This document shows, one piece after another, positions 43,097-44,142 of a stretch of DNA of 64,000 nucleotides (positions are counted from its first letter, which is position 1; each line of letters starts with the position of its first letter). The translations under genes and the position numbers were made by a program. The stretch comes from Dietzia alimentaria 72 (GTDB taxonomy: Bacteria > Actinomycetota > Actinomycetes > Mycobacteriales > Mycobacteriaceae): positions 62,001 to 126,000 of the forward strand of contig NZ_AGFF01000023.1 of assembly GCF_000226215.1 (NCBI RefSeq), given 5' to 3'. Below the pieces are notes generated by a model that was not told the DNA's origin, ran no database searches, and saw only the letters and a program-made list of their open reading frames with translations.

Positions 43097-43204
43097 GCAG
43101 GAGCCTCTTCGTCGTTCCCGAGGGGTCACGGCGAGGTTTCGTCCAGGTCTGGATGCGATAACAACGCATGGTGCCCCCCTTAGGCTGGTGCGGCGGTCCT
43201 TTGT

Positions 43205-43210
43205 TACGAT
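43205..43210 (+). promoter_or_regulatory. -10 candidate in front of the small ORF and atpB
   Basis: TACGAT in TTGTTACGAT lies 7 nt before the Shine-Dalgarno GGAGGAG (43218-43224) of the 39-codon ORF. Transcription would begin near 43216-43218, so the message would start almost at the ribosome binding site. No good -35 is visible. Confidence 0.4.
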
Positions 43211-43231
43211 GTCCTGCGGAGGAGATACGGG

Positions 43232-43351
43232 ATGAGCCGGCTCTACGCGCCGCTGACAACCCCGGGCCTTCACGGGTTCCGCAGGTCGGAACGAAACACT
43301 GGACATGACCACCGTCTCCGCAGGCGGCCCGAACAGGGGAGAGAACGCTGA
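43232..43351 (+). CDS. 39-aa basic small ORF coupled to atpB (previously unannotated candidate)
   Basis: ATG 43232 follows GGAGGAG with a 7-nt spacer, one of the strongest ribosome binding sites in the window. The peptide has 39 residues, is very basic (runs such as LRRRP and FRRSERN) and has no membrane segment or cysteine. Its TGA (43349-43351) overlaps the CTG (43348-43350) that opens the atpB frame, forming CTGA like the ATGA/GTGA junctions elsewhere here. The likely role is to deliver ribosomes to a poor start codon; the peptide itself may be inert. It lies in the 251-nt gap between atpI and atpB. Coding potential cannot be proved by eye. Confidence 0.5.
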   Translation: MSRLYAPLTTPGLHGFRRSERNTGHDHRLRRRPEQGRER

Positions 43352-44142
43352 GCACCTCACTGCTGGCATTCAAGGGCGAATTTCACTCGCCGTCGCTGCA
43401 CGACTTCTTCCCGCCGGCAGTACTTTTCGAGGGCACGCCCTTCGCGCTCGACCGGCTGATGATCATCAGACTGATCGCGGCTGCGGTCGTCGCAGTCTTG
43501 TTCTACCTGGCGATGCGTAAGGCGGCAGTGGTCCCGCGCGGGTTGCAGAACGTTGGGGAAATTGCTCTCGACTTCGTCAAGAACAACATCTCCGACGAGA
43601 TCATCGGGAAGAAGGACGGAGACCGGTTCCTTCCGGTCATCGCGACCATCTTCTTCCTTACGCTGTTCATGAACCTGCCCGCGGTCATTCCGGGATTCAA
43701 CATCTCGCCGAACGCCCGGATCGGAATGCCGCTTGTCATGGCGGCCATCGCGTACGTGGTCTTCATCTACGCCGGGGCCAAGAAGTACGGCTTTTTCTCC
43801 TTCGTGGGTAAGTCCGTCGTGGTGCCGAACCTTCCGCCGGCACTCCACCTGCTCGTCGTGCCGATCGAATTCGTCTCGACCTTCATCCTGCGACCGGCGA
43901 CGCTGACCATTCGTCTCATGGCCAACATGTTGGCCGGGCACATCATGATCGTCCTGCTGTTCTCCGCGACGAACTTCTTCTTCTGGCAGTTCAACGGGTG
44001 GACCGCGGTCAGCCTTGTGACCATCATCGTGTCGGTGGCGTTCACATTCTTCGAACTGCTGGTGATCTTCCTGCAGGCGTACATCTTTGCGCTGCTCACC
44101 GCGGTGTACATCGATCTGTCACTGCACGCCGACAGTCACTAA
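43348..44142 (+). CDS. atpB: ATP synthase F0 subunit a, probable CTG start
   Basis: A 264-aa membrane subunit a, which forms the proton half-channels. The essential Arg is in LTIRLMANMLAGH. The conserved N-terminal FKGEFHSP and HDFFPP segments lie upstream of the first ATG (43459). Reading back, the frame has no ATG, GTG or TTG before the in-frame TGA at 43306-43308. CTG 43348 has GGGGAG 6 nt upstream and overlaps the stop of a small ORF. Starting at 43459 would drop 37 conserved residues before TM1. Sequence resembles Corynebacterium/Rhodococcus rather than Mycobacterium AtpB. Confidence 0.9.
   Translation: MSTSLLAFKGEFHSPSLHDFFPPAVLFEGTPFALDRLMIIRLIAAAVVAVLFYLAMRKAAVVPRGLQNVGEIALDFVKNNISDEIIGKKDGDRFLPVIATIFFLTLFMNLPAVIPGFNISPNARIGMPLVMAAIAYVVFIYAGAKKYGFFSFVGKSVVVPNLPPALHLLVVPIEFVSTFILRPATLTIRLMANMLAGHIMIVLLFSATNFFFWQFNGWTAVSLVTIIVSVAFTFFELLVIFLQAYIFALLTAVYIDLSLHADSH

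Follow-up and report, generated by a model that had tools for sequence, protein, structure and literature searches.

The stretch analyzed here (the window) comprises 64,000 nucleotides of the Dietzia alimentaria 72 genome, in which atpB, coding for ATP synthase subunit a, follows atpI. The atpB frame gives the only PF00119 match in the whole genome (E 1.7e-55). Direct reading finds the frame closed by a TGA at 43306-43308 and then open as far as the TAA at 44140-44142, and it contains, as the earlier note had described, no ATG, GTG or TTG from 43309 until the ATG at 43459, so that the first canonical start lies 37 codons 3' of the CTG at 43348. The sequence agrees equally with two further descriptions in that note: a GGGGAG stands 6 nt upstream of the CTG, and a frame of 39 codons runs from ATG 43232 to a TGA (43349-43351) that shares the tetramer CTGA with the CTG. 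This ATG is preceded by GGAGGAG (43218-43224) at a gap of 7 nt and, further 5', by the hexamer TACGAT, which by eye is common to three related loci (L003, L005 and L006) and reads TACGGT in a fourth (L007); a search found no sigma-70-type site. Between atpI and atpB there is also a terminator-like hairpin (43183-43198) followed by CTTTGTTACG (one found versus 0.1 expected from shuffles). The best PDB match to AtpB (E 1.1e-20) begins at query residue 40, and the same search found no close chain for the N terminus. The features of the locus are collected in Table 1.

Table 1. Features of the atpB start region and gene in the window
Feature	Position	Strand	Basis
atpB, coding for ATP synthase subunit a; 264 codons counted from the CTG, then the stop	43348..44142	+	direct reading; PF00119 match
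CTG start codon of atpB (strongly supported)	43348..43350	+	144/148 distinct contexts; 214 versus 0 in 401 genomes, strict context
Shine-Dalgarno-like GGGGAG, 6 nt before CTG	43336..43341	+	conservation in 144 CTG contexts
Possible small hairpin CCC-GAACA-GGG, overlapping part of the Shine-Dalgarno sequence	43328..43338	+	82.5% of cells paired, no compensatory change
P3 stem CCGTC/GGCGG, 5 pairs including one G-U	43312..43327	+	homologous to covarying stem of leader core; by eye
Divergent RF02916 (atpB RNA) match, below gathering	43277..43361	+	28.8 bits versus 37.4; E 2.5e-4 / 1.1e-4
TACGAT, candidate -10 hexamer of putative atp promoter	43205..43210	+	relatives compared by eye
39-codon ORF of the earlier note, judged a chance frame	43232..43351	+	ATG at that position in window only

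The start region was compared across atpB from 22 of 23 Dietzia genomes (the 23rd, 78% complete, gave no atpB match), 80 loci from named records, mostly Dietzia and Corynebacterium, that were retrieved with AtpB peptide patterns (of which one was N-terminal), 30 loci (L104 to L133) fetched by RF02916 score, and further loci added family-wide. A locus was called near-type if its AtpB was at least 50% identical. CTG occurs at the homologous place in all 103 of the loci L001 to L103, which include repeats of the same genomes, and it lies 6 to 7 nt after the scored Shine-Dalgarno (SD) pentamer in 144/148 distinct near-type contexts; because 22 of these 148 contexts come from the loci fetched by RF02916 score, the sampling favors CUG. 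The two sets free of bias from RF02916 or peptide-pattern sampling give CTG after an SD sequence in 22/22 Dietzia genomes with an atpB match and CTG in 56 of the 59 near-type family genomes read, the latter drawn from 63 near-type genomes among 101 sampled (G113, G099, G086 and G061 were not fetched). Near-type AtpB was present in 17 of the 31 genera sampled, and each of the 17 has at least one genome with CTG. A contig labeled as a Dehalococcoidia MAG (L026) carries a Dietzia-like atpB locus with 88% identity to the window and is perhaps misbinned.

One of the four remaining contexts is a parsing error (L062, scored as TTG, reads CTG), and the other three are real losses: L170 has ACG at the CTG position, while L184 and L185 have no CTG and an ATG a few codons downstream fits. 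With three genomes having lost it, the CTG is not strictly indispensable. Across the 144 CTG contexts, the SD columns at -11, -10, -8 and -7 are invariant (G, G, A and G, respectively). The strict pattern GGRAGAGANCG-CTG-AGCGT was found in 214/401 family genomes; with the C of the codon replaced by A, G or T (giving ATG, GTG or TTG), this context was found in none of the 401. One substitution of that C suffices for a canonical start. The 214 matches were not individually confirmed at atpB, and the pattern misses a canonical start in a changed context; the count also underestimates CTG, since the window itself fails the pattern owing to different bases after the second codon (AGCACC). Neutral tree length, estimated from 47 fourfold atpB sites in 144 tips, comes to about 52 substitutions per site (saturated and therefore approximate). 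The start is thus a conserved non-canonical one, a rare codon kept over a long divergence despite one-step canonical alternatives, with three losses. Taken together, the alignments show conservation of the CTG, the SD sequence and the distance between them among near-type atpB genes of the family, and covariation in a stem just upstream.

Outside the family, the usual start codon is GTG. Of 25 loci from the order's other families, 19 have GTG with an SD sequence, 4 of these offering a CTG candidate as well; 2 have only TTG, 1 has only ATG, 3 are unassigned, and CTG was never the sole candidate. Four of these loci (L222, L228, L229 and L233) read GTG AGC at the homologous place. On a parsimony argument, GTG probably gave way to CTG in the common near-type ancestor. 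As controls, start codons of other genes of the operon were searched within 6 codons, giving ATG for atpE in 87/87 and for atpF in 83/88 (5 unassigned); atpH gave 58 ATG and 6 GTG (n = 64). A wider atpF control, covering 15 codons either side, had given 54 ATG, 9 CTG, 5 TTG and 2 GTG (n = 70) and was redone within 6 codons because the CTG and TTG examples printed sat 15 codons inside the gene. Since other genes of the operon also keep their start codons, constancy alone is no proof of a special role. Constant starts are not rare in the atp operon, and it is the identity of the codon kept, CTG, that is unusual. A far type of AtpB (about 30% identity) is the sole type in 14 of the 31 sampled genera. 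In most of the 11 far-type loci read (L187 to L197), an ATG start follows, by eye, shortly after a different coding stretch. Genus g8 has both types across its species, and genome G084 has one of each.

A conserved triplet might still belong to an untranslated leader, with translation beginning at a downstream canonical codon, which would be ATG 43459 in the window and, in numerous relatives, a TTG 5 codons beyond the CTG or an ATG 7 codons beyond it. Such codons do occur, the first canonical one being 5 codons past the CTG in 77/148 contexts and 7 past in 18, and the Rfam consensus extends past the CUG as though the stretch were leader. However, these starts would stretch the SD spacing to about 21 or 27 nt, a start at ATG 43459 would cost the window AtpB 37 codons, and 24/144 contexts, the window among them, have no canonical start in frame upstream nor within 15 codons downstream. 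The pattern of substitution also argues against a downstream start. Between the window and four relatives, codons 2 to 36 differ mostly by synonymous change (11 to 14 synonymous versus 2 to 9 replacement differences), unlike the 13 codons upstream of the CTG (0 to 1 synonymous, 2 to 7 replacement). Summed over pairs within Dietzia clade B, codons 2 to 36 show 478 synonymous and 411 replacement differences, and the upstream pseudo-codons show 75 and 205, respectively. The wobble columns of codons 2 to 5 (columns 5, 8, 11 and 14) vary, the CTG is fixed and the SD sequence is mostly fixed. These counts show variation of the coding type setting in directly after the CTG. We therefore regard a start at ATG 43459 in the window as very improbable, and hold the corresponding TTG or ATG start in relatives to be just as hard to sustain. 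Initiation at CTG 43348 rather than ATG 43459, as the earlier note had proposed, is borne out by the near-invariance of the CTG and its SD sequence in relatives (144/148 contexts), and the CTG as the start of atpB is strongly supported.

The same comparison is unfavorable to the 39-codon ORF, which the earlier note had thought to feed atpB by termination-reinitiation, or else to encode a new microprotein of 39 amino acids. What speaks for such a role is the window ATG with GGAGGAG 7 nt upstream, the CTGA overlap, and starts at least 10 codons long with an SD-like tetramer in 30/144 contexts under a loose criterion, including Dietzia maris. These starts, however, sit at different places, scattered from 11 to 236 codons, and in 39/144 contexts the open frame lacks any start. 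The ATG itself was found in the window and in no relative. In D. maris L003, whose AtpB is 98% identical, the frame is open and the ATG absent, with a TTG at 50 codons bearing the SD-like tetramer and a GTG at 60. The earlier note had named a broken small frame beside an intact atpB as grounds for refutation, and this is the situation in the close relatives L004, L005, L006 and L007, whose small frame meets a stop codon between 4 and 14 codons ahead of the CTGA. The overlap is accounted for by the CTG and its neighbor: TGA follows in 144/144 CTG contexts because the second atpB codon begins with A. With the frame unconserved, coupling is refuted as a conserved device and the proposed microprotein fares no better; we judge the ORF to be a chance frame with, most probably, no part in the start of atpB, and consider it extremely unlikely that reinitiation from it sets AtpB output or that its peptide is a functional product. 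Entry into atpB by frameshifting from an upstream frame was likewise discarded, since no such frame shows conservation.

The leader itself is of a known kind, and the earlier note missed that the region is related to the known RF02916 family ("atpB RNA", Cis-reg), a motif whose source is reportedly a 2017 paper. The window match is located immediately 5' of atpB in the same orientation and, like RF02916, has the 3' core CGGCCCGAACA-GGGAGAGAACGCUGAGC and a P3-type stem; unlike members of that family, it scores below gathering. Corynebacterium loci score 103 to 128 bits (5/5 scanned), and among 5 Dietzia loci scanned, L007 alone passes (37.8), with L002, L003, L006 and L008 below gathering. RF02916 was matched at E <= 0.01 in 240/401 family genomes (203 over the cut-off), spanning 17 of 31 genera; five genomes (G026, G032, G314, G354 and G362) have two matches each rather than one. 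The RF02916 consensus ends ...GGGAGAGAACGCUGAGCGUUACAAC, running over the CUG and the first codons; as the start of atpB is argued to be at the CUG, we assign the last 14 nt of this consensus to codons 1 to 4 and a portion of codon 5.

A core model (R1) built from 54 loci gives the window, itself a member, 44.4 bits. Of 249 genomes of the order, R1 matched 12, 11 inside the family and 1 outside, not at atpB; the latter (L209, in G465) was rejected, as its locus has no AtpB match. Dietzia clade B has weak core matches (31 to 39 bits), and at E <= 0.01 none of its 16 genomes was matched by RF02916. Genus g4 (L142 and L173) keeps the CTG (CTG ATC AGC), and the leader core was not found there. The weak core of clade B and the lack of a core match in g4 show that CTG and leader do not strictly go together. 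L176 and L178 carry two tandem copies of a box, GTCCGATCG(A/C)ACC, 5' of the P3 stem.

The P3 stem before the SD sequence covaries in relatives, with changes on both sides in 6/8 pairs; the window P3 was placed by eye because the model misaligns the window row. The alignment used for covariation (A2) was fitted to the P3 stem and retains two spurious rows, L209 and an additional match in L177. In it the covariation score of the whole tested structure was reached by 0/500 shuffles and the number of double-change cells also exceeds all 500, whereas 286/500 shuffles have at least as many doubly changed pairs. The hairpin over the SD sequence is conserved and lacks covariation, and the thermodynamic fold of the window leader alone was no better than that of shuffles (z +1.26). 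Corynebacterium has an upstream hairpin P1 with a long-range helix (GUGCGA.GGA/UCC.UCGCAC). This helix forms 9 to 10 of 10 pairs in 79 of the 83 leaders holding the 3' strand motif, compared with 2/83 for shuffled strands; across these 83 leaders, most strands are identical and compensatory changes are few. The window does not display this helix as such and has, by eye, a possible counterpart of only 3 to 4 pairs. A candidate Dietzia pseudoknot, also by eye, fits L006 (UGUGC/GCACA) and L007 but not L004 or L005, and fits the window weakly.

Structure around the codon raises the alternative that the CTG is kept for its RNA or DNA context and not for codon weakness. The elements in question would be a start hairpin (AACGC-UGA-GCGUU) and an inverted repeat (AACGCT-G-AGCGTT) that might be a site for a protein or ribosome factor. 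The hairpin pairs are present in 77.1% of cells. A two-sided change, from G-C to A-U, is seen at one pair in 13 rows, and two further pairs show two-sided changes in 1 and 2 rows. Yet the 13 rows all belong to Dietzia clade B and therefore represent one event, the outer pairs fail in the window (GAACGCTGAGCACC), and genus g4 (ACTGATC) breaks a pair and nevertheless retains the CTG. Conservation for the sake of context is a serious but unlikely reading.

We return to initiation at a weak codon. Ribosomes would start atpB at CUG 43348, 6 nt past the GGGGAG, in what would be the 3'-terminal part of an RF02916-related leader RNA. The CUG may be deliberately inefficient, leaving the output of subunit a dependent on the SD sequence and the leader. 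ATP synthase contains one subunit a to about ten of subunit c, and a weak start would keep subunit a low relative to c and could be gated by the leader. A change to AUG, GUG or UUG would thus be selected against because the CUG holds subunit a low relative to c. The low-output role of the CUG and regulation by the leader are what we infer from conservation of the sequence. As an account of the window, with a CUG start at the 3' end of a leader RNA, a deliberately weak codon limiting subunit a, and an uninvolved 39-codon ORF, we consider this probable. More tentatively, and with slightly less than even confidence, we hypothesize that 17 of the 31 sampled genera keep the CUG because a weak, leader-dependent start gates subunit a, and that the motif is an initiation device that includes its own start codon.

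Rare starts of this sort have a precedent in infC, which begins at AUU and whose product, IF3, regulates its own synthesis. As in infC, a rare non-canonical start is conserved in an essential gene, plausibly for the control of initiation; unlike infC, atpB has CUG rather than AUU, its product is not an initiation factor, and a feedback loop is known for infC alone. The ilvB-II leader of Corynebacterium, which is described as having a uORF with conserved start and stop (PMC10272879), resembles the present case as an RNA motif upstream of a metabolic operon and differs from it in that no conserved uORF is found at atpB. For the atp operon of Corynebacterium glutamicum, transcription from upstream of atpB and control by SigH and pH are reported (PMC3917460). 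An RNA-seq study of Corynebacterium allowed CTG when correcting 20 gene starts, and its main text does not contain "atpB" (PMC3890552). Among the matches listed from the open-access literature, no paper states that atpB starts at CTG, and the open-access search found no translational study of atpB. Nor do those matches describe the retention of the CTG across 17 genera, the presence of the motif core in Dietzia and further genera, or an interpretation of the motif as an initiation region; the source paper of the motif lies outside that search.

If this reading is right, atpB is likely mis-started in Corynebacterium, Dietzia and many relatives wherever CTG is disallowed as a start, and RF02916 would be the initiation region itself rather than a free-standing leader. 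A core bioenergetic gene would then have kept a CUG start over deep divergence, and selection for a weak start, whether for subunit stoichiometry or for control, would become testable, with C. glutamicum as a tractable host.
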